From a virus: a DNA stretch of 37,747 nucleotides. Location of the stretch: positions 1-37,747 of the IMG/VR virus record IMGVR_UViG_3300024518_005611, one strand, 5' to 3'. Positions 1,200 through 37,373 of this stretch are shown here, one piece after another. The stretch's first letter is position 1. Each line of letters begins with the position of its first letter. Position numbers and translations under genes: made by a program. The notes under the pieces were generated by a model that saw only the letters and a program-made list of their open reading frames with translations, did not search any database and had not been told where the DNA came from.

Positions 1200-3269
1200 T
1201 TACGATCGTGGTGCACCTCGAAAGTATTTTCGTCTATTAACGTTTTCGGATCTGGTTTGATTATCAACTGCTGAAGTTTGTCTGTCTGCTTGTTCTTCTG
1301 CGGATCGGTATCGTCTCCCTGCTAGAAAATTTGACTCTTTTTGTAGTTCAATTAATTCATCAGTCTTTTTCCCATTCGTCTCTTCAAGCAGTCTGCGACC
1401 TTCCGCAATTTGTTTTTCTTCCGCAGTATCTTCAATGCCGACCAAATTTTGAAGACCATCAACCATATTCCCGATTCCACCAAAGAACCAATCACCAGCC
1501 TTAGACATTTGATCCGGAATGAGATTCATCAATGTTTTCTCAATACCCGTTCCAATGGCATAACCAACTGCACCTGCTGCTGTTAATGCGGCACCGGTGG
1601 TTGCGAGTGCTGCGCCACCGCTTGCTAAACCAGTTAATGCCTTTGCACCGCCCACTGTTTTTGCAGCCACGCTCGCTCCTCCACCTCCTAACATTTTCAT
1701 GGCTGATAAGAATCCGGCGCCTGTCAGTACACTTGTTAGAGCTGACATTGGTCCTTCAGTCATAGCTGCTGCAAGAGCTTGAGTTGCTAATGTTAATTTA
1801 ACTTGTGATTCTGTTAGGTCTACAGAGTTTTGCGTGGTCATTGCTCCCGTAGGCCCACTAACAACATCTCCAATTTTTCTTCCTTCTGCCAATGCCAGTT
1901 CTGCCATTGCTCCACCTGGACCAAATCTATCCATCATCCCAGTGCTTTCCAGTAATTGAGAAACAACCATTTCTCTTCCAAAATCACCACTCGACATCTC
2001 AGAGCTTATTCTTTTCGTAAGCATGGCCGAAAGTTCCGCGAAACGAGCTTTGTCACCTTTACCACGTAAACCGCCTCGTTGTAAACGAGCCATTTCTTCA
2101 CCTTCGGCGCCCATTCCCAACGCGCCCGCCAAGGCTTGCATTTTAGCTGCTTCTTTCAAACGTGTTTTTGGTGCTGCTGCACCCATTGCTTGCATAGCTT
2201 CAACAGCTCTCATTGCTGCTTCTTGTGTTAATCCATCGATAAATAATTGTTTAGTTACAGATTGTAATTCAAGGAAATACAAACCACGACGTTTTATATC
2301 CATCTTAAACATTTGTTCTCGAGTGGTTTGACCATTAAGTAACTGTGAGTTCATTTCTTTGAATTGATCAGTTGTCATTGACAAGGTGCTGTGTAAATCC
2401 TTGTATATGTTTTGTTGCTCTTTTAAAAATTCTGTTTGCGTGATTCCCACCGCTCCTAGGTTTCTAAACGTTCGTGTACTTTCTGCTGCAAACAGTGCAC
2501 CTTCTTTTAGACTTCCTGTGAACTCACCCAGTTCCCATGCACTCTTCTCCATCATGTCACTGAATGCATCACTAGACATACCTGACGCTTCAATTGCGTT
2601 ACGATACTGACCTTGGGTTTCAATCAATTCAACTTGAGACATTCCCATCATTCGAGCTTGAAGAATTCCCTGTTGAGTCATGTCAACACCGGAACGCATC
2701 GAAGCAGTAGTTACGTCATATAGTTGCTTACCTGCGGCCATGGCAAGAACCTTTACTGCGTTAAAGGCTTTTCCTAATCCTTCACTTCTCCGCCCTGCTT
2801 GTTCAAGTTTTTCGTTTACATCGCCCAGTATTTCAATTTGTTCATTATATCTGTCCGAAACAATTACAAGGGGTTTCTCCAAATCACTAAGTCGTGCACC
2901 AATCTCCCTGAGTTGTTCTTCTGCTTGTTGTTCTGTGATTAAGTTTTTTTCTTTTTGTTCCTTGATCTTTATGAACGTTTTTATATTAAACTTGTTGTAA
3001 CGTTCTTGTGCTCTATACACATCATCAATGTTTTTAATCAACCTGCCTTGTGCTCTTATCTGTTTATTGGCAGATTTTTGCATTTTCTTTGACATTTGGT
3101 CAGCTAATTTCTGTGAGCGTTTTGCTATTGCTGCTTCTTCATCACTAACAGCACCGCGACTTTTGAGCGCTGATCCGCCTCCCATGCTACCTTCCGATTC
3201 CATAGTTTTATGCATAGCCTTAAGTTCGGCTAACATTTGGGATTGTATTATGGTTGGATCTGTGGCCAT
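1200..3269 (-). CDS. Probable tail tape measure protein (gp29-like role)
   Basis: The 689-residue protein starts at ATG 3269 (MATDPT). The frame stays open 61 codons further upstream, but that stretch runs through the divergent promoter region and into the opposite gene, so I reject the longer start. The N-terminal 200 residues are charged and coiled-coil-like. Residues about 505-575 form a long Gly/Ala-rich hydrophobic segment (around GGAALATTGAALTAAGAVGY), and a charged helical tail follows. This is the usual architecture of tape measure proteins, which fill the tail tube and set its length. At roughly 0.15 nm per residue it would predict a tail near 100 nm (inference). The divergent neighbour is gp26/gp51-like, and tail assembly chaperones normally adjoin the tape measure gene. 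No diagnostic gp29 motif was recognised; another internal or membrane-active virion protein is possible. Confidence 0.65.
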   Translation of the reverse strand: MATDPTIIQSQMLAELKAMHKTMESEGSMGGGSALKSRGAVSDEEAAIAKRSQKLADQMSKKMQKSANKQIRAQGRLIKNIDDVYRAQERYNKFNIKTFIKIKEQKEKNLITEQQAEEQLREIGARLSDLEKPLVIVSDRYNEQIEILGDVNEKLEQAGRRSEGLGKAFNAVKVLAMAAGKQLYDVTTASMRSGVDMTQQGILQARMMGMSQVELIETQGQYRNAIEASGMSSDAFSDMMEKSAWELGEFTGSLKEGALFAAESTRTFRNLGAVGITQTEFLKEQQNIYKDLHSTLSMTTDQFKEMNSQLLNGQTTREQMFKMDIKRRGLYFLELQSVTKQLFIDGLTQEAAMRAVEAMQAMGAAAPKTRLKEAAKMQALAGALGMGAEGEEMARLQRGGLRGKGDKARFAELSAMLTKRISSEMSSGDFGREMVVSQLLESTGMMDRFGPGGAMAELALAEGRKIGDVVSGPTGAMTTQNSVDLTESQVKLTLATQALAAAMTEGPMSALTSVLTGAGFLSAMKMLGGGGASVAAKTVGGAKALTGLASGGAALATTGAALTAAGAVGYAIGTGIEKTLMNLIPDQMSKAGDWFFGGIGNMVDGLQNLVGIEDTAEEKQIAEGRRLLEETNGKKTDELIELQKESNFLAGRRYRSAEEQADRQTSAVDNQTRSENVNRRKYFRGAPRS

Positions 3270-3385: not shown

Positions 3386-4243
3386 ATGACCAATGAACAA
3401 GACACTGTTGCTGAACTATCAGCTGGTGTTCCCACACAACCAGCACCAACAAACCCTCTACTTGCTAGAATTCAAATGCCAGGTGAGACCTTTAAACTAC
3501 CATCGGGTGGTTTATTCTATACTAACGGTGAATTAGCAGATCATGTAAAAGATGCTGAAGTACAAGTGCATCCAATGACAGTTTTGGATGAGATAATGAT
3601 CAAAACTCCTGATATGTTATTCAGTGGTAAGGCTGTTCAAGAAGTGTTTGGCCGATGCATTCAAGATGTCATCAAGCCTAATCAACTATTAGCAAAGGAT
3701 GTGGATTTCTTGTTGTTATGTCTTCGAAAGGTATCATATGGTGATACGCTTGAGATGGAAGATGTGCACTACAATTGTCCAGCTAAGAAAGAGAAGGAAG
3801 AAGAACCAGAAGCTCACACATACCCTATTGATATCAACACATTCATCAAGAATAGTAAGTTAATGGATCCAACCACAACCAAGCAATACTTTTTTGTAGA
3901 GTTACCAAATCAACAAAAAGTTAATATAACTCCGATTAGATTTGAAGATTTTGTTACTTTGATGCAAGTTCAAGACGACGATGTAAAAACTCCTGAGGAG
4001 CAGGTATTTGAATTAACAAAAACACTGGGTAACATCATAGTTAATGTTGACGAGACAACTGATAAGAAATTAATTGTAGAATGGTTGCGTAAACTTAAGC
4101 CCGAATATTTGAGAATACTACACGCTCGTTTGGAAGATACTGTTCAATGGGGACCAGATTTTAAATATACCTACAACTGTAAAGATTGTGGTCAGGCGCG
4201 AGAGGTCGTCGCTCCAATGAACCCTTTAGCTTTTTTTACATAA
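3386..4243 (+). CDS. 26: Baseplate hub assembly protein, gp26-like
   Basis: A 285-residue protein with the layout of the T4 gp26 baseplate family: an N-terminal LPSGGLFY element (about residues 38-45), a helical middle, a YNCP cysteine element near residue 130 followed by a charged KKEKEEEPE insert, and a C-terminal YNCKDCG zinc-binding-like pair followed by MNPLAFF. In T4, gp26 is needed to build the baseplate hub; in related myophages this gene sits in the tail assembly chaperone position. T4 gp26 is about 208 residues, so this one is longer. The stop codon lies immediately after a run of seven T residues, which appears to be a -1 frameshift site into the next frame. GGAGA precedes the ATG by about 10 nt. 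Family assignment is from motif pattern only. Confidence 0.8.
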   Translation: MTNEQDTVAELSAGVPTQPAPTNPLLARIQMPGETFKLPSGGLFYTNGELADHVKDAEVQVHPMTVLDEIMIKTPDMLFSGKAVQEVFGRCIQDVIKPNQLLAKDVDFLLLCLRKVSYGDTLEMEDVHYNCPAKKEKEEEPEAHTYPIDINTFIKNSKLMDPTTTKQYFFVELPNQQKVNITPIRFEDFVTLMQVQDDDVKTPEEQVFELTKTLGNIIVNVDETTDKKLIVEWLRKLKPEYLRILHARLEDTVQWGPDFKYTYNCKDCGQAREVVAPMNPLAFFT

Positions 4244-4467
4244 CGATCAAGAACGGAATCGTTGAAGATATTCAACGAATGTTTAATGGACTTGAGCGTG
4301 ATATAGACATTCTACTTCAGAATGTCATTGAACTGTGTTATTTTATGCGTGGTGCTATTTCTTACGAAGAAATGATGATGAGAACGGCCGGTGAAAGACA
4401 ACGTATAGGCGATTTCATCAGGAAGCGACTCGAAGCAGAATCGAAGAAGATGAATCCAAATTACTAA
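4186..4467 (+). CDS. 51: gp51-like baseplate hub assembly segment, probably translated as a -1 frameshift extension of gp26
   Basis: This frame is -1 relative to the gp26-like gene. Its only upstream start candidate is a TTG at 4186 inside gp26 with no evident ribosome binding site, and the first ATG is at 4279. The protein-like sequence begins at the slippery run (YITIKNGIVEDIQRMF...) and contains CYFMRGAISYEEMMMRT and ERQRIGDFIRKRLEAE, the pattern of small T4 gp51-like hub assembly factors. Slippage at 4231-4237 would give one 360-residue gp26-gp51 fusion (284 plus 76 residues). Initiation at ATG 4279 would give only 62 residues. T4 has separate gp26 and gp51. Presence of a real coding segment is well supported; the way it is translated is inference. 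Confidence 0.75.
   Translation: MWSGARGRRSNEPFSFFYITIKNGIVEDIQRMFNGLERDIDILLQNVIELCYFMRGAISYEEMMMRTAGERQRIGDFIRKRLEAESKKMNPNY
4231..4263 (+). promoter_or_regulatory. Candidate programmed -1 frameshift site (slippery T7 plus stem-loop)
   Basis: Seven consecutive T (4231-4237) are read as T TTT TTT in the gp26 frame, followed by ACA and the stop TAA. Four nt after the run, AACGAT (4242-4247) can pair with ATCGTT (4258-4263) around a 10-nt loop. A slip of -1 bypasses the stop and enters the gp51-like frame at TAC 4237. This resembles the T TTT TTG-type sites known in tail assembly genes of other phages; the stem is short. Confidence 0.6.
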
Positions 4468-4476: not shown

Positions 4477-5139
4477 TTAGTGTCCTGCCATCTTCCAAGC
4501 TAAATGATATCTTTCCGATGAGGTATAAGATGCAGCTGGCGCTGAATCTGAATTCATATTATCTGTTGTAGCAGCACTACGAATACTTCCCGTATCTGCT
4601 TTATCATCATCGTGCCACCCATCAATGATACGTGCATATTCACCTGTCATGTTACTAAAAATTATAACATGTTGACCTATACCTAAAGATCCATCTTGAA
4701 TACCAATGTCACTACTATCAAATGGATGAGGTGGGCGGGTAAGATCGTTTCCAGTTCCAGCAATTAATCCTGCTGCCCGCAAGTGAGCAAAAAATTTGAG
4801 TGTTTCCTGTTCACCATTTGTAGGTGGTGTAGACTCGTCTAAATTCCAATCATCTCCATATCCAACATAACCATTACCGTCGCCGTTCATTTCGGGCATT
4901 CCAGTATACATAGTAAATGTAACATCAGCGGATGGATCATCTCCTGGGAATTCACGATAACGATCGTAATACAAGTCTCTTGCTGAAACCAATCCGCTTT
5001 GCACAACTTGCATTTTTTTCAATTTAGTATTGGTAACCATTTCTGAAGCTTTTAATACTCCACCCACAAGCAATGCAATGACAATTAATATCATTGCAAT
5101 TTCTACTAATGTGAATCCTTTTTGAGTATCATTTTTCAT
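4477..5139 (-). CDS. Type IV prepilin / pseudopilin-like protein
   Basis: The 220-residue protein starts at ATG 5139; a TTG start 18 nt earlier is less likely. It has a classic class III prepilin signal: leader MKNDTQKG, then FTLVE with the conserved Glu at mature position 5, then a hydrophobic helix (about residues 14-33). The globular part has a YYDRYREFPGDDP element, NGDGNGYVGYG, a LKFFAHLRAAGLI helix and an ERYHLAWKMAGH end, the pattern of bacterial pilin-like proteins. A prepilin peptidase would cut after Gly8. It lies 5 nt after the stop of a small membrane protein gene, with a host-type promoter upstream of both, and is oriented against the late gp26 block. The phage role is unknown; being swapped into or jamming a host pilus or type II secretion pseudopilus is an inference. 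Acquisition from a bacterial chromosome is likely. Confidence 0.88.
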   Translation of the reverse strand: MKNDTQKGFTLVEIAMILIVIALLVGGVLKASEMVTNTKLKKMQVVQSGLVSARDLYYDRYREFPGDDPSADVTFTMYTGMPEMNGDGNGYVGYGDDWNLDESTPPTNGEQETLKFFAHLRAAGLIAGTGNDLTRPPHPFDSSDIGIQDGSLGIGQHVIIFSNMTGEYARIIDGWHDDDKADTGSIRSAATTDNMNSDSAPAASYTSSERYHLAWKMAGH

Positions 5140-5144
5140 ATGTG

Positions 5145-5366
5145 TTAATCCATACAATCGTATCCTTGACCAATGTCGAGACCATTATACTTTTGTGGAG
5201 GACGTTCTACCTTCTTACATTGAGTATAATCAACAAACACTGCTTGTTTCGCAATAGAGTCAGATGAAATGATGACTATACTGATAGTGTGTTGATGAAA
5301 AAGAAAGATTGATCCTACTCCAATTACAAAGAATAAGATTATCCCGTTTAAAATATTGCTTACCAT
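5145..5366 (-). CDS. Small single-pass membrane protein, unknown function
   Basis: A 73-residue protein with one N-terminal hydrophobic helix (about residues 5-24, ILNGIILFFVIGVGSIFLF) and a polar C-terminal domain of about 45 residues containing two cysteines (TQCKK and YDCMD). GGAAAGG lies 2 nt before the ATG. The gene is the first of a two-gene unit with the prepilin, which starts 5 nt after its stop, under a sigma70-like promoter. The context suggests envelope function, possibly assisting or anchoring the prepilin, but nothing in the sequence identifies it. Confidence 0.7.
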   Translation of the reverse strand: MVSNILNGIILFFVIGVGSIFLFHQHTISIVIISSDSIAKQAVFVDYTQCKKVERPPQKYNGLDIGQGYDCMD

Positions 5367-20562: not shown

Positions 20563-23500
20563 ATGGCTAGAGAAATTTCAAGAACAGAAGCATTTGAACG
20601 AGCACATGAGATATTCTCTCAGGTGAATTTCAATTCATTTGATTTTAACACAATCAAGGAATCATTACTTGATTATATCAAGCTGTATTTCCCAGAAGAT
20701 TTCAACGATTACATTGAATCATCAGAATTTATCGCTATTGTTGAATTGTTTGCATATATTGGTGAACTTCTCGCTTATCGTGTTGACATCAACGCACATG
20801 AAAACTTTATTACAACTGCTCAACGTAAGGAATCTGTACTTCGCTTAGCGAAGATGATTTCATATAAAGCATCTCGTAACCTACCAAATCGTGGTTTGGT
20901 TAAACTTTCATCCATTCAAACAACTGCTACAGTATTTGACTCACTTGGTCGAAATTTAGCAAACAGAAAGATTTTCTGGAACGATCCTAACAACACAGAT
21001 TGGAAAGAACAATTCTTGTTGGTTATAAATCGTGTACTTGAACAAGAATTTGGAACAGTATCTCCAAGTGAACGTGTGCAGGTTGATGATGTTCTGTTTG
21101 AATTGTATACACTGAATAATAATCCATTATCGTCTGGTGCTGGTAGTGTATTTTCTTTTAACACAGCTGTTTCGGGACAAAGTGTTCCAATGGAAGCAGT
21201 ACCAGCTCAACTCATTTCAACAGGCCCAGAAGAAAAACGGCCTGAAGTAAATGCAAAGTTCTCTCTACTATTTGGTAATGATGGTCTTGGTGATGGATCA
21301 GATACAACTGGCTTCTTGATGTTCGTGAAGCAAGGATCGTTGCAACGTGTTCAAGCAAACTTTGATGGTATAACACCAAACCAAACATTTGATATCAACA
21401 CTGACGACATCAACGAAACAGACTTGTTTGTTAATAATGTTGATCCAGATACACGTGAAATTATAGTTACTGATCCCTTTGCAACTGCACTTCCTCACCT
21501 TGTATCAGAAGATCTTCGATTTGGTGAGTGGATAGAAGTTGATCTTGCAAACGCTCAAAACATTTTATTCAATACCAACAAAAATAGACACAAGTATGAA
21601 GTTGAAACACTTGATGAAGATCAAGTTCGTTTGGTGTTTGGTGATGGAGAATTCTCCGATGTTCCAAATGGTGCATTTGATATATGGTACAGAACTTCAC
21701 TTGATGAAGATCTTGCAATTCCAAAAAGCTCAGTAGCTGATGAATCATCATCTTTTACATATAATGATGTTGCTGGTAATGTTCAAACAATCTCATTTAC
21801 CTTTTCATTAATCAGTTCACTTCAGAATGGCTCTGCATCAGAAACGATTGATCACATTCGTCGAGTCGCTCCATCTGTTTACTATACACAGGATCGTATG
21901 GTTAATGGCCGTGATTACAATGTATTCATGTTACAAGACCCATCAATTCTTAAAATGCGTTCAATTAATAGAACGTTTGCTGGCGATTCAAAATACATTG
22001 CTTGGCACGATCCTCGTGAAAACTATGAAGACGTTAAGTTGTTTGGTGATGATCTTGGTTTGTATTGGGATGAGAAAGCACCAACATCTGGTGGTCTTAC
22101 AGCAATAAACTCTCCACTCGATACAAATGAACTCTTATTTGGATTCGTGGAACCACTTCTATCAAGTACAGACTTTTTTGCTGTCATTGGTCCAGAGATC
22201 GAAGCTCTTGGTGGTAATCCAGGCAGCATGCGTAGAACTTTCAACACATCAACAAATCCTTATGTTGCCGACCCTGGCCAGCATCCACTGGGCGATGATG
22301 AAGTAACAGCCATCTCTGCAGCGATCGATTTGGCGATTGGTGGAACGAATCCAGTCATAGATTTATACTACTCAACACTATATGATGAGTGGACAGTTGA
22401 TGCACATCCTTGTGATGTTCTTCCTAATCCTCCTTTCGTTTGCGCAGTTGGAACCTCTGATGCAATTTTTATGATCCGTATTCAAGTTATATTTGGCCTC
22501 CAAGGATTGACAGGTTGGGACATTCGTTTCAGAACTAGAACATTGACTGCAGACAGTCAAGTAACAAGATTTTGGAACACCAACCAAACTAATCAAATTC
22601 AAAACTTTGATACGTTAAATCCTGTAACAGATAAGATCGTCGTCCTTCAAGCAAACTCTGACGCTAATGGAACTGGACTTCTCGATACTAATAGAATTTA
22701 TGATATTCTAAGTCAAAGATTACTAGAACAGAACTTATCGAATGCTGGTCTTCCAGATATACATCGTTTGTCTATCCTTCCAGAAGATACAAATGGTGAT
22801 GGTATTCCTGATAATCTACTTCAACCGAACCTCTTCGATCTTGAAACAATTGTTGCAACAGGTAACACATTGACAGCAGGACAATCAGATTCAAGTTATA
22901 ACGGTGTAGGATCAAATGGAATATTTACAGCTGGTGCATCATATTTGGGCGGTGAGGTAATAACATTGTCAAATGGTACCACTGTCACGAACACTACTGG
23001 TGCACCAGGTATAATTACAGATTTTACAGTCGATACTGCTGGCGCTGAAGTTGTAACTGGTGTTGCATTAACGCAACTATCGGTGTCAGGTGGATCAGTT
23101 GGTACTGGATTTACATTAACACCTGAATCAGATAATGTAAAAATCCCAGAAATAACATTACCATTATCATATCTAGTTGGATTTGAAGATGTAGATGTTC
23201 AATTGTACCACGTTGATGGTGCTGGAGTTCGAACTAGACAACTTTTTGACACTGGTAAATGGATAACTCCTCCACCAGACGATGATCCTGCTGTTCTTAT
23301 TCGGTTTTTGGTTGACTTTACATCAACTACTTTGGCTTTAGATGAAACTATCGTGGTTAGTATAACAGATTATGTTTACTTTAATCGAGAAAGTTCAACC
23401 GATCCTTGGGCACCTCAAACTGTAACTGATTCAATTAAAACTTTATTCTTACAAGATGCAGCAACTGTTGAAGATGAGCGACGTTACAAACGCCACGAAG

Positions 23501-24126
23501 GTCGATATCCTTTGAACTTCGCTTGGTTCCATTTCACTCCAAGATTGAATTTAGTCGATCCATCAGCAACAAACATTATTGATATGTATATTATCACAGT
23601 TGGATATTATACCTCACTGTTGCGATTTTTAAATAATCAAACAGACAATGAACCAACATTGCCAACACCATTTGAATTAAGATCTTCATATGCGGATCTT
23701 CTTGAGAATAAGATGATTTCAGATACAGTAATACTTCACCCTGGAACATTTAAAATTCTATTTGGTTCACGTGCTGAAGAGTCACTTCGAGTAACATTCA
23801 AGGTAGTTCGTCCATCTGAATCTAATTTGACAGACAATGAAGTAAAGGTTAAGATAGTTGATAATATTCGCACATTCTTTGATATTAATTCGTGGGAATT
23901 TGGTGAAACTTTCTTCTTTACTGAACTAGCCGCATCAATACATGCAGAATTAGGACCTGAAATAGATTCGATTGTACTTGTTCCAACGTTCTCTTCAACA
24001 CAGTTTGGTGATTTGTTTCAAATACAAGCGCGTGAAGATGAAATGTTTATACCTGACATCGGTACAACGAATATTGAAATCATTCAATCGTTTACTCCAG
24101 AAAATATCAGACAGAACGAAAGTTAA
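20563..24126 (+). CDS. 6: Baseplate wedge protein gp6-like, enlarged
   Basis: An 1187-residue protein; T4 gp6 has about 660. The N-terminus matches gp6 (LYFPEDFNDYIESSEFIAIV, ELFAYIGELLAYRVDINA, HENFITTAQRKESVLRLA), as does a VRRVAPSVYYTQDRMVNGRDYNV-type element near residue 425 (here IRRVAPSVYYTQDR). The C-terminal 200 residues (RSSYADLLENKMISDTVILH, INSWEFGETFFFTELAASIH) match the gp6 end. Extra material lies in the middle, including a copy of the glycine-rich beta module A at residues about 773-859 and an aspartate-rich loop DTNGDGIPDN near residue 744 that looks calcium-binding. gp6 dimers form the inner baseplate ring. Confidence 0.92.
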   Translation: MAREISRTEAFERAHEIFSQVNFNSFDFNTIKESLLDYIKLYFPEDFNDYIESSEFIAIVELFAYIGELLAYRVDINAHENFITTAQRKESVLRLAKMISYKASRNLPNRGLVKLSSIQTTATVFDSLGRNLANRKIFWNDPNNTDWKEQFLLVINRVLEQEFGTVSPSERVQVDDVLFELYTLNNNPLSSGAGSVFSFNTAVSGQSVPMEAVPAQLISTGPEEKRPEVNAKFSLLFGNDGLGDGSDTTGFLMFVKQGSLQRVQANFDGITPNQTFDINTDDINETDLFVNNVDPDTREIIVTDPFATALPHLVSEDLRFGEWIEVDLANAQNILFNTNKNRHKYEVETLDEDQVRLVFGDGEFSDVPNGAFDIWYRTSLDEDLAIPKSSVADESSSFTYNDVAGNVQTISFTFSLISSLQNGSASETIDHIRRVAPSVYYTQDRMVNGRDYNVFMLQDPSILKMRSINRTFAGDSKYIAWHDPRENYEDVKLFGDDLGLYWDEKAPTSGGLTAINSPLDTNELLFGFVEPLLSSTDFFAVIGPEIEALGGNPGSMRRTFNTSTNPYVADPGQHPLGDDEVTAISAAIDLAIGGTNPVIDLYYSTLYDEWTVDAHPCDVLPNPPFVCAVGTSDAIFMIRIQVIFGLQGLTGWDIRFRTRTLTADSQVTRFWNTNQTNQIQNFDTLNPVTDKIVVLQANSDANGTGLLDTNRIYDILSQRLLEQNLSNAGLPDIHRLSILPEDTNGDGIPDNLLQPNLFDLETIVATGNTLTAGQSDSSYNGVGSNGIFTAGASYLGGEVITLSNGTTVTNTTGAPGIITDFTVDTAGAEVVTGVALTQLSVSGGSVGTGFTLTPESDNVKIPEITLPLSYLVGFEDVDVQLYHVDGAGVRTRQLFDTGKWITPPPDDDPAVLIRFLVDFTSTTLALDETIVVSITDYVYFNRESSTDPWAPQTVTDSIKTLFLQDAATVEDERRYKRHEGRYPLNFAWFHFTPRLNLVDPSATNIIDMYIITVGYYTSLLRFLNNQTDNEPTLPTPFELRSSYADLLENKMISDTVILHPGTFKILFGSRAEESLRVTFKVVRPSESNLTDNEVKVKIVDNIRTFFDINSWEFGETFFFTELAASIHAELGPEIDSIVLVPTFSSTQFGDLFQIQAREDEMFIPDIGTTNIEIIQSFTPENIRQNES
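22879..23141 (+). repeat. Beta module A, copy 1 (in gp6-like protein)
   Basis: About 87 residues: SSYNGVGSNGIFTAG, GGEVITLSNGTTVT, VALTQLSVSGG, GFTLTPESDNV. It is the most divergent of five copies found in three adjacent proteins. Confidence 0.7.
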
Positions 24127-24190: not shown

Positions 24191-27100
24191 GTGGCAAACG
24201 ATAATTCAGATTACAATCTGCCGAGAACAAAGTTGCATGAACTGCTCGCACACCCGTTTGATTCAAATGTAAACAAGTCGGTCTTCGAGAACCTGTTCAA
24301 TCGATTCCTTACCAAACCAGAAACTCGTAAATTGGCTGGTTACATTGGTCAAGGAAATGAAGATGCACTCATCTCTCGCCAAATTGTTGAACCAACCATA
24401 GACCGTCAAGCGGCTCAACTTCAGCCAATTCTATTTAATAAAATTGGTTCGGTTGAACACATGGCTTCTTGGAAGGATATACTGAATGAATTAGTACGTC
24501 TGGGTGTTGACATCGATCGTCTACCAGAATGGGGCGAAGCACAGGTATTCAATTGGGTTCCACCAATTGATATTGATAAATTAATACACTACCAAGATTA
24601 TTATTGGGTTGATCCAAATAATCCAGCAGGTCAGCCACAATATCTTACTATTCGAAGCCGTTGTGCAACTGCAACATCTCAAGCTAATTTTCATCAACGT
24701 CTAGTAGACGAGTTTGGTGAAGATTTTCCAATATCCGGAACAGAAGCGGTTGATGGAGTACTTCCAACATTTGCTATTCTGTCAATTAGTACTGGTGCTG
24801 AGTCCATACTCGTTGCAGGTGATGCCACAGCTGACCTAACTTTCGAACAATTCTTTAACGTCACAGGAACATTATTTAACAACGGCGAATATCAAATTCT
24901 GTCCGTACCAGTTTTTGATGGTACTAATACAACGTTTGATGTTGGACCAGGCATATTGGTAGCGGATGAATTGACAATCGGCACCGTAAACGTACAACGA
25001 TTTGATACGTTAATTATTCCAGGCGAATTTATCAGATTATTAGAACCAGGCTTTGTATTCTTCTTCAAAAACACTACCAATGTAGACTTAGAAGATAGCT
25101 TCCTAACAGTTGTTTCAGCGAGTTATGATCAGACTGCAGATGTCACAACTATCGAAATCGACGTAACATTCACATCTAGTTCTACTGATGGTGACATCTC
25201 TCTAGTTGAACAGTTGAACATTTTCCTTGCTGAACAATCTTGTCAATGTGAAGGTTCTGTTGGTTGGGATATTTTTTCATGGGATGACAATCCAACAGAT
25301 CCACTGTGGGATGGTGATCTCGTTCCACTTCTCGCGAGCATTTCAAATCTAGTCGATCCAGTAGCACCTGGTGCTGAAGGTGAATTGTGGTTTAATACTG
25401 ATACAGATCAATTGTTCATATATGGTGCAGATGCTTTTGGTCCTGGCGTGCCAGGTTGGAAAGTAATATACAACAAGTTTTCAACTGTTGTTAGCGCTAC
25501 AGAAGGATTGGGTTTGTGGGATTTCACCCCCGATTGTGGTGTGCAATCTATCATTGATGCTGCGGACCAGTGGATCGATCAAAACAAATGGGTTCATAAA
25601 ACTGATGTTACGAACTTTTCTGTTGCCAAGCAAGCATCCCTACCAATCATCGAATATGATTGGGACTTGGAATTAAACGAATGGACATTTGCAAATCCAG
25701 TTTGGAAATATCGATTCGAAAGATTCATTCCATTTGCAGCCACTACGGCGCAGCCACAATTAATTGAACTCACGCCACTATTTGATTGGGTGCAAGGTGG
25801 ACTTGGTTTTGAAGCAAATATTATACTTGATGATCAGTATGGTGATTTAACTGAATCATTTACTCCAGGCTCGTTCTTCCAAACCCTCGATACTTCTGAT
25901 TTGTTGGAAGTTGTTAGTTCCAAATTTGAACAACCTGCTGCTGGGCAACCATTTCAAACAATAATTACACTCACCGTTGATGTTCCAGTAGGTATGATAG
26001 GAGCAGGCGCTCTTCGTCCTGACGGTGTAGCGGGGTTGAGACCTTTCAGAACTTCTCTGGGTGATCCTTGGAAAGCATATCACGATCATTGGTTGTTTGT
26101 TGAAACAGAATCAACAATCGCTATTAATCACCAACCAGTGAATCCATTTATTGCAGCACCCATAAGCTCACCAGTTGTTGACATTGAGTTTGAAACGCTG
26201 GGAGCAGGCACAGATGGAGAATATCAAACAACAGCATTTTCTCAAACATTCAATGTGCTAACTCCAACGCCTTTAACAAAATTTAAATTAGCTCCAACGC
26301 TTACAACCAACGCACTGGTGGGGTTTGACGACATCCGAGTGTATGTTAATGATATTCGAGTATTTGGAACATATCAAGAACTCACTCCCGATGGACCAGT
26401 AGCCGAAGTTGATTTGATAACAACTATTAGTGAAGATGTTTTTTATGTACAACAGATTGAATTTCTTGTTGGATTTGAAACAAAACAATTTGATGTAATT
26501 CGAATTGAAGTTGGTGAAGGTGCAATAGATGAAATCGGATTGGCTTCTGTCCCTGTTAGAACAATCGAAGATAATGATGCATTTAATAATCTTTCAACTG
26601 GTGGCACTCGCACTGTTAGTTTGATACAATTACGAAAAGCTGAGCAAGTTAAAACATTAAACAATCAATATCCATTATTTGACATATATGATACTACTGG
26701 TGCATCAGCCTTGAAAGCAAATTCAATTTTTGCCTTCGCAACATCGCCTGATGCTAACATTAATGTAGCAGTTGGTCTTCGTATTGTGGTTGATGATGCT
26801 GGTACGGATTTTAGTTTTGAACAATTCCTTTGTGATCCAGATACAAACGTTTTGCGTGCTTACCGTGATTACTCTAATGAGCCAGGAACATATTGGGCAG
26901 ATTCGGAAGCTCGGGAAGTTAAGTTTTGGGACGGATTAACATGGTCTGATAAAGGACTACAAGGATTACAATATGAACAGGCAGTTGTTGATGTATTTGA
27001 ACCAACATCTCCGTTCACTGGACAAGTGTGGTTTGATACTATATCAAATGAATTAAAAGTATATGATGGAGCAAATTTTGTTGTTGCATTAGCGTCAGAT

Positions 27101-30100
27101 GTGAACTATTTAAACTATGACATCACTCTACAAACGATTTGGAAGAAGGGACTTAACGATGAAACCTATGTTCCAGTAGTGGTTGATTGGAAGAATCGCA
27201 CAGTAGAAGAATATGACGCTGAGCAAGTACTGTTTGTATCTGAATCAGCTGAAGAATTGATTCTGGCGGATCCTACGTTAACTCTAGCAGAAGCAACAGC
27301 TCAAGCAACAACAACTTGGTATGCAAGTCAGGCCAATGATTTATCACCAACAGGATTTTGGAGTGGTGATTGGGAAATTCCAGATCCGTTATACTTCAAC
27401 AATCAACATGAAAATAGAAAAATATTGATGACGTCTGAATTGGTGTCTCACTTTAATTCTATCATTTCAGCACAACCAACAATCCCAGGATTTATTGGTC
27501 CTGATAGCGCTCGTTTCCATCTTATTGCAACAGAGAATGTCAACTATGGTGTGGGCGGTTTGATTAAAGAATTCAACAACGGATTTGATACATTCTTGTC
27601 TTCAATATTTGTAAACAACGTCACTCCACCAACGTTGTTTGAATTTGCTCACGATCAATATGAAACACTATTGAATGTGTTGAAGGAAGATTTTCGAAAT
27701 GATGCTAACGATTTAATGACAAACATAACTGTTGAGTCTCTGACAGATTTCTCAACATTTGCCACTAACACTATACTTGATGCGTTTGAACAAAACGATA
27801 ATGCAGCGTTCTTATATGGAGATAGCACAACATTTACCGATGTGACTGGGGCCGATGATCTGGGCGTTCGCAATTGGATTGCAACACTTCCATACCTCAA
27901 TTTGGTTAATCGTGTTGCTCCAGAAAAGATAGTTGATGATTTGCATGATATTAATAACATTACTCATCACGATGGACACAGCCAAGGATACGCATACACC
28001 GATGCAACGCTTGCCGGAATAGCTCGTATTGTTATTAACACACCAGATTCGCGTTCAACGTTAGCAGCACCAGATAATACATTTGGTAAGATAGATTCAG
28101 GATCGCCGCCAGATGATATTGTTGAGTTTGCAACAGCACCTTTCTTTGGTGAAACAATTTTAGGTCGTGAAGGTGTATATTGGTATCAGGTAGTGGGTGT
28201 TACTCGAAGACTTTACAGATTAGCAATAGCAGCTGTTGGTACAAGTGAACCATCATCTTCTTTGGCAGATGGAACTTTATGGATGGATATGGCACCACTC
28301 GGTGAAGTGCTTCGTGTTAAAAATGGTGTAACATGGGATGTTGTAAGTGGTTTAGCGATTGGTGATGGACGTCTACATAACGGAACCAACCCAGCAGATA
28401 TTACTACATCTTCCATTTCAGCGTGGCAGGAACTTGATCTTGATGAAATTCTTGTTAATATAATTCTCGAACTGGAAGAACGGTTGTATGAAAATGCACC
28501 TACACCAGTGGTACTTGATTATGATTTTGATGCACTACAAGACACAGCGGCCAAAGTTGCACTATATAATCAACTCCTTGAAAATGCTTTTCTTGCGTTT
28601 ACAAGATCGAGCGAAATTACTGCTCCTCTGGTTAATGGTGATTATGTTCCAACTGATCCTTTCACTTGGAATTATAAGCGATCAGTTCCAGGCGCGAATT
28701 TCCAAATTATTGATACTGACACAGTCGCAAATACCTTCACAATTGATGATACGTTTGCTGTATCCTTCCCAGCAGCATCAACATTCTTTGTTAAAAATTC
28801 TGGTGTAAATGATGGCGAATTTACAGTTGTATCTTCGGTTGAAGTTGCAGGTCCACAAACGGTTATCACCGTAGTTGAAACTGTACAAGACTCGTTGCTT
28901 GGTGTGATATACAAAGGAACATTACCATCACCAGATAATACAGGTTCTGAATCTGGTGGTGATTGGAGAGATTACTACAAGAAATTATACGGAACACCAT
29001 ATCCTCACCTCGAGCCTTGGATATTGCAAGGATACACAGATAAACCAACGTGGTGGGAAGCTGAGTACACAAACGATGACATAAGCATTTGGGGCAACCG
29101 CCGTTGGAAATATCTACACCAAACAGTAATTGAAGGACAATCTCAATTTCTTTACACGGGGTTTGGAGATAACGGAACATTTGTTGCCGGTGATGGAGCA
29201 GGTGGAACAGCATACGCACCAGGTGACACTATTACATTAAGTGACGGTTCTATCGTTACAGTAAATATCATTGATGGTGATGGAGATGTTGTCTTCTTTG
29301 ATGTAACAACTTCAAGTGGAATAATCGTAGTACCAGGCACCACATTAACACAAGTGTCAACTTCAGGTACTGGATTAGCGTTCACATTAACTCCAGAATT
29401 GTCTAATATTATCGGTGTAGGAATGTGGCAAAATATTCGAGCTGGTATAATTCCAGCTGGTCAATTGCTTCCAGACGGTGCAACAACATCAACTGGAGTA
29501 TTCATTCCAGGCTCAGTACCGTTATACAATTATTTTTCTGTTAACATCGCTGATGTAACAGTCACATCAAACGGTGGAGCCACAACATTTGATCCAGATG
29601 ACGTTTTTCCTCCTTTCTTTGATTATCTTGCAGCGGGTGAACCAGCGATTACACTTAATCGTTCTGTGTTCCGCGAATTTGCTATTGAGATTATATCACC
29701 AGCAGCAGATTACGCATTTGCAGATGCTGGACCTGTCGAGTTTGAGTGGCGCGAGTCATCACACTTTCTATACGATCAATTAACAATTGCATTCCAGATG
29801 GATCCAGTTAATCTTGTGAGCGATACCTTTGGATTTGATTACAATGTAATTGACCGATTGGAGATTGATAGCCAAACAGAACAAACACCTTGTCATTGTC
29901 GAACAGACTTTCATGGTGAAGTAGTTGATGATGAACTGTATCAAGTTGATGGAACAAATCAATGGTACGTAAATTTCAATCGTTACTTAGGATTCGACTC
30001 AAGCCTTTCAGATTTCCGTAGCTTGTGGACGTTGTGGACAGCACCAATGATGTATCAATTCTCATCATTTGTTGATACTTCATCTTTACAAGTTGCACAC

Positions 30101-33100
30101 AGATCAGTTCCAACGAGTGAATTTGATTTTCGTGTGGCGTCAAAACGCTCACCAGGCGCGGATGATTTCTGGTTAGACGCGCTTGATGTTACACTCATCA
30201 ACATTCCACCTAACCTTGCTCGTTATGATAATCAGCTTGATTGGGGATTGGAAGTTGATACCAATTCACCACTTAACAGATCAGTAGAGTACTATGATGT
30301 TCGAAACTTTCAATTCGATGTCGATGCTGCTACTGACGTTTGTACTCTATATTCTTACCCAATACAAGGCTTGGAGTTCTTTAATGAAACCTTCTTTGTT
30401 ACAGGAAATCAAGTGGGAATTTTCCCATTTGCAAGAACGTTTGATATAGTAGGTTCAACTGGTAACGATGGCAGCTACACAGTTGTCAGTTCAGTATATG
30501 ACGCAACAGTTAATCAGACACTAATTGAAATTAATGTGCCAATTCCATCTGCCGTTGTCGATGGCAATATTGTGGCTAACTATCGTTCTATTCCTTGGGA
30601 AACAGGAGATAGTGTTTGGTTCTCTACCGAAGAGACCTTACCAGCACCACTGAAAGGTGATCAAAAGCAAATCGGTCCAACACGATACTTTATAATTCGT
30701 TTGAATAACAATCAATTCCAAATTGCACTTACTCAATCTAATGCGCTTGCTGGACTCGAAATAGATTTAACAACAACTGGTACGAAGAATTCTTTCGTTG
30801 GACAAATATCCACAACATTCCAAGCATTGGACGGATCGCGCACCGAGACGTTGTGGCGTCACTACGTGATTGATAAAACCAACACTCTGACATTTACTCC
30901 TCCGTTTGATATACAGGGTATGCAAACGTTGGTTAACATTGTTGATGGTTATGAATCATTTTCATTTGATGAAGGTTTTAGAATAAACGAAAACAAAACT
31001 CGTCAAGATCCAGACACTGGTAGATTTGTGGATTGGCAGATTGAAACAGAGCGTTTCATTCACTTTGCTTATGGTCAACGTTTGCAACGCAATCGCAACA
31101 TCAACAACAGATACTCCGTATCTGTTGATGTAGGATCAAACGTATGGACATACACTGCTGAGAATGGTACATTTGTAACTGGTGCTCCGATTAATGCAAT
31201 TTCATCTAATACAATTCAGCCAGCACCAATTATTACCAACATAAAATACTTTATCATTGTTGATACTGCATCAACCTTCCGTTTAGCAACAACGCGCGCC
31301 AATGCAGAAGCTGGAGTTGAGATTGACATAACTTCCGATTTAGCGATCGGTGATCTGTTTATAACTTCTGCTGCTGACTTCAGAGCTGTATTGCCAAGTC
31401 AAGAGATTAATCCTTTCAAAAATGATTTATTCTTCAGACCAGCAGCTGGTATTGTTTCAAATCTTTTGACAGGACCATCTGAAGACATCAGAAATACACA
31501 ATTGTTGTTCGATCAATATGGCCGTCCTCTCAATCGCAAACAAATGCGTATACTGCGCGAAGATCAACAAACACAAATTACAATTATTGATGAGATTAAT
31601 AATGATGTTGAATTGACAAGCATATTCAACGATCCGTATAATTTCATACATCTTGGTGGAGCTCACATCTTTATTGATGCATACGAGCATGTATTAATAT
31701 TCAACAATTACACAACTGAAGATTCATTACTATATGATACGTTCCTTGGATTGAATGTAAGCAAATTTGAAATGTTATTCAATCGTCAGGTTGAATTCAC
31801 TCAACGTCCAAACGTTGGTGGTAGTTACTTTAAAACTTTCTTTAACCAAGGTGCTGAACTTCTTGATAATTTTGAAACTCAAATTGATAGCGTTCGCAAC
31901 TTATATGATTCGTTCAGAGTAATCGAAGCTAAGCCGTTGATACAAGAAGCAAGAAAGGCTCTCGGTTACGAAGGAACACGAGGCTATCTTGATAACATGA
32001 ACTTGAATGAAAAATCTCAGTTCTTGTTCTGGAAGGCTTTGATTCAACACAAAGGATCTCAACAATCAATTGATGCATTCATCAATTCTCGTCGTTTTAT
32101 TGATGCGAAGGTTGATGAATTTTGGGCTTATAAAATTGCAGATTTTGGTTCTTCACAAGATAAAGAATATCCTGAAATGTTTCTCAATACTACAGATGCT
32201 CAAACAAGCGATCTACGTCTTCAGTTTATTGAAGAAGATGATTTCTGTATCCCTGGTTTTGGTAATGATGGTTTTGATGAAGAACTATGCGGATTTGATA
32301 TCAGTCAGGAAGATTCAATTGCGCTCGATCCAGGCTTCATTGGTATTCTTCTTACAGATCAAGAACGTTGGTTTAACCAACCCGATCAACTTGAAGTTCT
32401 TAGAAACAACGGACTGTCATTATACTTTGATTTAAAACCAACTAACAGATTACCAATTGTTGTAACTGAAACAATACCAGTCGGTCTTGCAGCAGGCGAC
32501 GGGTGGCTTGATATATCTGTAAAACAATTACAACTTCAAGATGAAAGTTTTTATGATGGTGTTATCCCAAATGGTTCTTTTGTTGGTGGTGATGGTGTTG
32601 GTGGAACAGCATATTCCGCTTTCGATACGATCACGCTATCTAATGGAACCGTTCTTACCGTCGATACCGTTGATGGCGGCGGCGACGTTACTGGATTTAC
32701 AATAGCCACAGCTGGTGCTTCGTTAGATCACCTATCATTAATAGGTGTTACATTGACACAAACCAGCACATCGGGTACTGGTACATCATTCACATTAATA
32801 CCTGGCGCGGCCAACGTAACTACAGCTGAATATACATTCAACGTATTTGATCCGGATGCGGGCTTTGTTTTCAGCGGATTTTGGCTTAATACAGAATTAC
32901 CAATTCTACGCCACAACTTTTCTTCTGATAATGAAGTAGTTACAGTTGAAACAGTTATAGAAGGGACACGAATTGCACCAACAATCACGCCTGGGATAAA
33001 GTCAGTTATACTTTCTGAATTATACATTCCATTCACTAATCATATTCATGTATTCAGAAATGGAACAGAATTAGAACCGCTTGTCGAATACGTAGAAACA

Positions 33101-35749: not shown

Positions 35750-37373
35750 TAATATCAAAGAACTCGATCCGGTTCAAGGTCTGATCGATTATATTGAAGA
35801 CATTAAACCCTACCACACTAAAGTGGTCGAGGTGTTGACTGAGTATGTCTACAATGAACTTATTGATACTACAATAACGGAAAGATTTGAATCAGCAATG
35901 GAGATGATTTATCCAAGTCCTGAACTTCAAGATGAAATACTTGCTTTGTGTGGATTTGGTGGTGGAAATCCGTGGGACGGGTTTACAGCATGGCCAGTAA
36001 TTCCTGAGAATGTAACACTTGTTCTCGGCCCGTTTGACGATACTCCAGCAGGGTATGATATCGTAGCAGATACGGTAAAAATAACTGGAGATCGAACAAG
36101 CCAATATCTAGTCGGGCGAGATATCACTATAGATTTGTACGCAGTAGATACTGTCCTCGATACAAGAACGGTTGGAGTTCAAACAGTTTACACCGTCACC
36201 GCTGCTGAATTTGTCACATTCGGACAAATAAACGGTATTGCTAATACTGAACATACTGTATTAACAGTAACAGGATTGCTCGATCCGACTGTTGCACTTC
36301 CGCCGTTAGGTATAAATGAAGTGTATGCAGCAGGTGTAAATTTTGATCCATATCCGATTGATTCTGTTGTTGGATATAGTAGTGCAGCTCCAGTATTTTA
36401 CACAGATGTGCCACCGGGCGCAGATCCGCTACCTACACCAACAGTTGGGAGTTTGTCACAAACTCCAGATGAAAATCCAGGCGCACTAATATTTTCAAAT
36501 TCGTTTGTATTGTTGGGCGATTTCGCGGGCAGCTTCCCTCAAGGTTTTATGCTCAATGTTATAGGTGGCACAACCGAAGGAGAATACACGGTCAAATATG
36601 CATTTTATGATAGCGTTGGCGACAAAACATATATCCGTGTTGTTGAAGAAATTGACACCGTAGGATTTGTCACTGGTGATATTCATGAACGCTTCTTTGG
36701 TTATGATGAGTGTGCGATCAATCAAGCCAACGTTCCTGTAGGATTGACAAACACTCAAATGGTTGAAAGTTTAGTGTTTAGTTGGAGCATTCCTGCATCG
36801 GTAACTGATATCATTGATGGCTTCCAATTCTTCGTAAATGAAGCAGTTACAGGAACATTCACCTTTAGAGTAAACGGAGATGCAACTGGTGATATTTTTG
36901 ATACCGACTCCATTCGTCTAATAGGATCACATACTAATGATGGTGTGTATACCGTTTCAGGTGCACCAGTTTTTGTACTTCCGTACACAGATATCACTGT
37001 AGTAGAAGCAATACCCGATACTCAAACAGGTACAACTGAATATGCTATACGTGAAGGACAATCAGAATTTAATTATGATGGTGTTGGTTTAAACGGCACA
37101 TTTGTTGGTGGTGACGGTGCTGGTGGTACAGCATACGTAGCACTTGACACAATCACTTTATCAGATGGATCTATCGTTACGGTAAATGTTGTTGATGGTA
37201 ATGGTGACGTTATAGATTTTGGTATTACAACTTCTGGCAATACTGTAGTAACACTTGGTGTAGCACTAACTCAATCTTCTACATCTGGTACTGGTACAGC
37301 ATTCACACTAACACCGGAATTAGCAAATGGATTTAGTACAGCTCGTGGTTGGGTTGAAAAATTTGCCCCTTAA
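35742..37373 (+). CDS. Baseplate/tail protein with modules A and B (543 aa), unknown role
   Basis: ATG 35742 overlaps the end of the giant gene and follows AGGA by about 9 nt; a TTG at 35739 is less likely. The N-terminal 80 residues (DPVQGLIDYIEDIKPYHTKV, VVEVLTEYVYNELID) look helical and unique. The rest is built from beta modules: a Val/Thr-rich region at about 85-200, two B copies (about 247-320 and 373-435) and one A copy (about 437-530), ending ARGWVEKFAP. Its position after the giant gene corresponds roughly to gp8 in T4, but I see no gp8 motif. Shared modules suggest it contacts or evolved with the giant protein. Confidence 0.78.
   Translation: MTSNIKELDPVQGLIDYIEDIKPYHTKVVEVLTEYVYNELIDTTITERFESAMEMIYPSPELQDEILALCGFGGGNPWDGFTAWPVIPENVTLVLGPFDDTPAGYDIVADTVKITGDRTSQYLVGRDITIDLYAVDTVLDTRTVGVQTVYTVTAAEFVTFGQINGIANTEHTVLTVTGLLDPTVALPPLGINEVYAAGVNFDPYPIDSVVGYSSAAPVFYTDVPPGADPLPTPTVGSLSQTPDENPGALIFSNSFVLLGDFAGSFPQGFMLNVIGGTTEGEYTVKYAFYDSVGDKTYIRVVEEIDTVGFVTGDIHERFFGYDECAINQANVPVGLTNTQMVESLVFSWSIPASVTDIIDGFQFFVNEAVTGTFTFRVNGDATGDIFDTDSIRLIGSHTNDGVYTVSGAPVFVLPYTDITVVEAIPDTQTGTTEYAIREGQSEFNYDGVGLNGTFVGGDGAGGTAYVALDTITLSDGSIVTVNVVDGNGDVIDFGITTSGNTVVTLGVALTQSSTSGTGTAFTLTPELANGFSTARGWVEKFAP
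36480..37045 (+). repeat. Beta module B, two tandem-like copies
   Basis: First copy: SNSFVLLGDFAG, NVIGGTTEGEYTVKYAFYD, TYIRVVEEIDT. Second copy: FRVNGDATGDIFDTDSIRLI, GSHTNDGVYTV, YTDITVVEAIPDT. They directly precede module A copy 5. Confidence 0.65.
37051..37330 (+). repeat. Beta module A, copy 5
   Basis: About 93 residues: FNYDGVGLNGTFVGGDGAGG, DTITLSDGSIVTVNVVDG, LTQSSTSGTGTAFTLTPELA. Closest by eye to copy 2. Confidence 0.8.

Follow-up and report, generated by a model that had tools for sequence, protein, structure and literature searches.

In the 37.7-kb IMG/VR virus record taken here as a whole (the window), a gene for a gp26-like protein runs into a second, coding-like frame that lies at -1 relative to it, and the question is how this second frame comes to be translated. 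A programmed -1 frameshift had been proposed at this junction from the sequence of the window alone. Having compared the locus with its relatives, we consider it highly probable that such a frameshift yields a short and a long form of a tail assembly chaperone; this reading is based on a conserved in-phase heptamer, a conserved -1-frame protein, an RNA stem and a predicted fold.

The gp26-like gene, its extension and the probable slip site

The gp26-like gene occupies positions 3386-4243 of the plus strand, ends with TAA at 4241-4243 and encodes 285 amino acids. Its product was matched by PF12322 with an E-value of 1.5e-9 (38.3 bits against a curated cut-off of 24.5), the alignment covering residues 51-284 and profile positions 14-218 of 219, and also by phrog_150 ("baseplate hub"; E 1e-15); on these two matches and on its homologues in 50 phage records, it is assigned as the short form of a tail assembly chaperone. 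The open reading frame closes with ATG AAC CCT TTA GCT TTT TTT ACA TAA. Because the seven T occupy 4231-4237 (plus strand) and the stop codon 4241-4243, the run stops one codon short of the stop, as had been noticed originally, and its phase in the 0 frame, T_TTT_TTT, suits tandem -1 slippage. Of the 25 genes of the window that were checked, indeed, none but the gp26-like gene carries a canonical X_XXY_YYZ heptamer 14 codons or fewer from its stop. Another heptamer of canonical form, C_CCT_TTA, is located three codons 5′ of the T run (4222-4228, plus strand) as a possible minor slip site; in the close relatives compared, it is common to the window and locus L025 and absent from L026, L028 and XacN1.

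When read in the -1 frame from the T run, the sequence starts with FFYITIKNGIVEDIQRMF and is open to 4464. The complete translation after the slip site is FFYITIKNGIVEDIQRMFNGLERDIDILLQNVIELCYFMRGAISYEEMMMRTAGERQRIGDFIRKRLEAESKKMNPNY, namely 76 codons (4237-4467, plus strand; YITIKNG...NPNY) with the stop at 4465-4467, and this stretch is assigned as the C-terminal domain of the long form from its translation, from homologous extensions and from pN/pS. Joining the 0-frame and -1-frame parts gives a product of 360 residues, the length that the sequence-only reading had expected. That reading had also found no ATG in the second frame before 4279 and a lone TTG earlier, and both observations hold: the earliest ATG past the run is at 4279, 14 codons beyond the slip, and TTG at 4186 is the sole start codon between the previous -1-frame stop and that ATG. 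In hmmscan, the extension alone hit no family above noise, and the phrog_150 match of the joined protein reaches residue 292 only.

A stem-loop past the run, again anticipated, was recovered as well; the segment 4238-4310 folds with -16.5 kcal/mol (z -3.1), and the stem-loop itself (4243-4299, plus strand) begins 5 nt past the heptamer, which falls within the spacing of 5-9 nt for stimulatory structures, and is a likely stimulator of frameshifting. The stem is laid out similarly in L025 (z -3.9), L026 (z -3.7) and XacN1 (z -4.5), with the outer stem at the same positions in the window and L025. When 33 loci were folded, the mean z was -1.62 directly past the heptamer versus -0.43 to -0.49 at the four positions that served as controls, and values below -2 were obtained in 13 of the 33 at the slip site versus 3 to 5 at the controls. 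The stem is not universal; some of the relatives folded, L028 for example, have none past the heptamer.

In the mechanism that we propose, translation of 3386-4243 would give the 285-residue short form, a member of the T4 gp26/gp51 family (PF12322). With TTT TTT occupied by two tRNA-Phe, a minority of ribosomes would slip one base back at T_TTT_TTT (4231-4237), probably aided by the stem 5 nt downstream, and the slipped ribosomes would pass the TAA at 4241 to make the 360-residue long form, whose C-terminal domain of 76 residues would run to 4464. If lambda gpG/gpGT are a guide, the tape measure protein may be coated by numerous short copies and a few long ones, and tail tube subunits may be recruited by the long form through its C-terminal domain. 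The same pair would be attained in T4 through two paralogous genes, 26 for the short and 51 for the long form. We infer the occurrence of slippage, its efficiency and the binding partners from sequence.

Conservation among relatives and other routes to the second frame

In a tblastn search with the joined protein as the query, 50 phage records were hit, and 16 of them, all jumbo phages, were matched in two pieces over both frames. The heptamer T_TTT_TT[T/C] was found at the equivalent Phe-Phe in XacN1, RAS14, Atu_ph07, PA5oct, Phosso, Vibrio 2.275.O, Munch, RaK2, GAP32, XaC1, 121Q, CBB, XbC2, SCTP-2 and Kaldavass, and in every one of these jumbo phages the -1 frame is open for 70-80 codons past the site. 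Synechococcus phage Syn19 and the KVP40-like Straboviridae phage ValKK3 likewise carry the site. In the search for related loci, the window protein, XacN1 and the wide alignment A1 returned nothing as queries, and narrower alignments returned loci: close IMG/VR relatives of the window (L025 with 67% identity, L026 and L027 with 51%, and L028 with 45%), more jumbo-like loci and 30 further loci of the T4-like/cyanophage type. Comparison of homologues had been proposed as a check on the T run and the overlap, and 62 loci turned out to keep the in-phase heptamer together with an open -1 extension. This -1 set, which includes the window and some near-copies and to which ValKK3 can be added, is made up of jumbo phages and T4-like phages or cyanophages in which T_TTT_TT[T/C] is followed by a -1 extension of 60-80 residues; the arrangement is present in 27 of 27 jumbo-phage loci and 33 of 33 T4-like/cyanophage loci with the junction read. 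LR756511 (L006) was counted in the set on its heptamer and open frame, with its slip site less sure as its extension resembles that of the +1 clade described below.

The homologues outside the -1 set are the +1 clade, Ackermannviridae and two-gene phages. The Ackermannviridae SFP10 and VAP7 (L080 and L081) have an open -1 frame beyond the gp26 stop with no T_TTT_TTY heptamer; the junction in VAP7 reads GTT TTT CGC TAATG, and the -1 frame of SFP10 matches the extension profile weakly (E 3e-4). This suggests a different slip site or re-initiation in these two phages, which were kept out of the statistics.

The codon choice at the site is peculiar. The codon before it invariably ends in T, and the amino acid that it encodes varies among Ala, Ser, His, Tyr, Asn, Arg, Asp and Thr. 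Taking the protein and codon usage of each locus as fixed, we calculated how probable it is that all preceding codons end in T and all first Phe codons are TTT, and obtained 10^-9.8 for the 16 loci with less than 45% identity and 10^-15.8 for the 24 with less than 60%; since the set was chosen by the preceding T and the open frame, these values measure the oddness of the codons and are no unbiased survey, and they overstate independence because the loci have common ancestry. Elsewhere within these genes, the in-phase T_TTT_TTY occurs twice in 16,279 codons.

The extension also appears to be constrained as a protein. Between the window and L025, pN/pS is 0.30 across the extension and 0.46 across the 14 codons 5′ of the first ATG, and other pairs in the clade give 0.46-0.63 for the extension and 0.42-1.08 for the part before the ATG, where sites are few. 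The residues directly past the slip, FFR..LL...PEEI, are kept in the wider jumbo set and are often encoded 5′ of the first start codon. As judged from these comparisons of sequence, the -1 frame codes for protein beginning at the slip site.

The second frame might instead be a separate small gene, gp51-like or, by the annotation of some records, a "baseplate hub assembly catalyst", with translation either from an independent start or through re-initiation coupled to termination of gp26. An ATG does overlap the gp26 stop in Atu_ph07, Phosso, 121Q and ValKK3, and a small open reading frame is often annotated there in the records. These relatives with the overlapping ATG nonetheless retain the heptamer, and re-initiation needs no T at the end of the preceding codon. 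In many relatives, furthermore, the window included, the first starts lie 14 to 30 codons inside the conserved part, and PA5oct (L004) has an extension of 73 residues with no ATG, GTG or TTG and no CDS annotated in that frame, which makes it a clean natural test for frameshifting. Conservation of the -1 frame before the first start, together with the start-less PA5oct, argues against a separate gene, which we regard as improbable for the locus, with re-initiation at the overlapping ATG possible in a minority of the relatives.

Alternatively, it might be the RNA polymerase and not the ribosome that slips at the T run, so that mRNAs of mixed length are produced. The run of seven T in the window and of eight in L028 would be in line with this idea, but in most relatives a C comes after six T. 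This speaks against slippage of the polymerase, for which a run of six T is short. Also, the features conserved are the codon phase and the downstream stem, and slippage of the polymerase is thus very improbable. As the window is an IMG/VR contig and homopolymer errors are possible at T runs, we also considered that the gene might be broken or the sequence wrong through an error of sequencing or assembly. This is refuted, to the point of being hardly credible, by the recurrence of the frame relation in dozens of independent genomes, cultured phages among them, and by the constraint on the -1 frame.

Relation to T4 gp26 and gp51 and the neighbouring genes

The AF2 model of the gp26-like protein has a mean pLDDT of 85, and its two best matches among solved structures are 3klu (Z 6.3), which is YqbN, a prophage tail chaperone of the XkdN type, and 2ob9 (Z 6.0), the tail assembly chaperone of HK97. 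Both matches span residues 167-254, and the following ones drop to Z 4.6 and then 3.3; the two best Z scores are middling on the tool's own scale, and the Foldseek E-value for 2ob9 is 0.44. The model therefore lends support to, and is no proof of, a chaperone fold in the gp26-like protein. By sequence, the profile of the 0-frame part gave no credible match to solved structures.

T4 gp26 and gp51 are both full members of PF12322 (E 8.8e-64 and 3.9e-52, respectively); their genes are on opposite strands, and gp51 is longer by about 48 C-terminal residues. The profile of the cyanophage-type -1 extensions matched T4 gp51 best over residues 211-243, with an E-value of 1.3e-4 for the whole gp51 protein in a search of 914 sequences. 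The jumbo and cyanophage-type extension profiles matched each other with a probability of 96 (E 2e-9); the jumbo profile gave no direct match to T4 gp51, and the link hence runs through the cyanophage-type intermediates. On these matches, gp51 corresponds to the long form and gp26 to the short one. The extension is, as far as these profile comparisons go, homologous to the C-terminal tail of T4 gp51 via intermediates.

The sequence-only reading had described the locus as a fusion of proteins that are separate in T4. It is supported with one refinement, namely that gp51 corresponds to the whole long form and not to an add-on. An equation of the extension with full gp51 was dropped, since T4 gp51 is itself a PF12322 protein and only its tail resembles the extension. 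In terms of sequence, the short and long isoforms with a common N-terminal part are present, and "gp26 fused to gp51" is better put as the short and long isoforms of one chaperone, for which T4 has two paralogous genes. In T4, gp51 is needed for assembly yet not found in the particle; both proteins, gp26 as well as gp51, are counted among the hub assembly chaperones (PMC3004832).

A tape measure gene next to the chaperone gene had also been claimed. A gene for 689 amino acids at 1200-3269 does adjoin, but it is on the minus strand and is thus divergent; its product gave no family hit, no phage match and no database match that names it. It likely encodes the tape measure protein, as we infer from its position, its length and a similar 695-residue neighbour in L025. 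The chaperone gene is directly followed by the annotated tape measure gene in immuto and LIS04.

Two further features of the surroundings deserve mention on their own. The open reading frame directly past the extension (4477-5157, minus strand) encodes an N-terminus resembling that of type IV pilins, MKNDTQKGFTLVEIAMILIVIALLVGG, which is unusual for a phage baseplate region. Also, a glycine-rich module, NGTFVGGDGAGGTAY...TITLSDGSIVTV, is repeated in three adjoining large proteins of the baseplate region (20563-24126, 24191-35749 and 35739-37373, plus strand), one of which has 3852 amino acids.

Possible evolution of the chaperone pair and comparison with known systems

In a distant clade of phages with PF12322 proteins, which comprises SP-15, LIS04, GXN1, Mel-JY01, immuto, RM378 and LR756508 (L010, L019, L020, L021, L022, L023 and L084), the frame that holds a related extension is +1 (or -2). 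The sequence CC CGA TTY just 5′ of the stop is common to SP-15, LIS04 and GXN1 and is a plausible +1 slip site. In the tree of the short domain, the +1 clade forms a single branch (94/84), while the root and the placements of T4 and RB43, with their long branches, are unsafe; the four groups need four changes on this tree, the minimum possible being three. We somewhat favour the view that frameshifting was the ancestral route to the T4-type chaperone pair, with the -1 mode kept in jumbo phages, cyanophages and KVP40-like Straboviridae, the +1 (or -2) mode in the clade of Bacillus, Listeria, Streptococcus, Flavobacterium, Microcystis and Rhodothermus phages, and gene duplication (26 and 51) in T4 and RB43; as the tree does not settle the deep branching order and long branches lead to T4 and RB43, "ancestral" is not proven. 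If this view is correct, T4 gene 51 would be a hard-wired former frameshift product.

For many sequenced jumbo phages and cyanophages, the frameshift would supply a long chaperone isoform that is likely missing from the records, where the extension mostly figures as a hypothetical protein in its own right (phrog_18291, of unknown function) or has no annotation. It offers a possible reason for T4 having both gp26 and gp51. It also provides a clear rule for annotation and a natural series (-1, +1 and two genes) for considering why tail assembly needs a fixed ratio of short to long forms.

A frameshifted tail assembly chaperone is of a known kind, and the gene in the window adds a member to it. 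In phage lambda, gpG/gpGT are produced by a conserved frameshift in tail genes (Xu, Hendrix & Duda 2004) at a slippery sequence different from that in the window, and the order there is G-GT-tape measure, whereas the likely tape measure gene of the window is divergent. In Vandenendeviridae and Andersonviridae, as described in the paper on phage Adele (PMC12846349), a -1 frameshift is conserved as in the window, there at a GTTTTT motif, and the extension would otherwise be recorded as a hypothetical protein of its own; these phages belong to a different group from the window. Phage 0305phi8-36 resembles T4 in that the paralogous genes for gp143 and gp144 mimic G and GT with no frameshift (PMC2147016), whereas the frameshift form is retained in the window.

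The closest known case is that of T4-like phages treated by Vladimirov, Gautam & Davidson (Virology 2022, doi 10.1016/j.virol.2021.11.003), as that work is cited in two later papers. According to the PRFect paper (PMC10885494), T4-like phages can have a short chaperone gene and, beside it, a longer (fusion) one with no frameshift, and, according to the Adele paper (PMC12846349), polyT -1 signals are known in the TAC-N genes of T4-like phages; the 2022 work may already cover the jumbo, KVP40-like and +1 phages. The T4-like gp26/gp51 proteins share with the window the PF12322 family, the short and long forms and the homologous tail, and the polyT -1 signals cited from the 2022 work are a further common feature. 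T4 and RB43 themselves have two separate genes, whereas the window has a single gene with a -1 frameshift.
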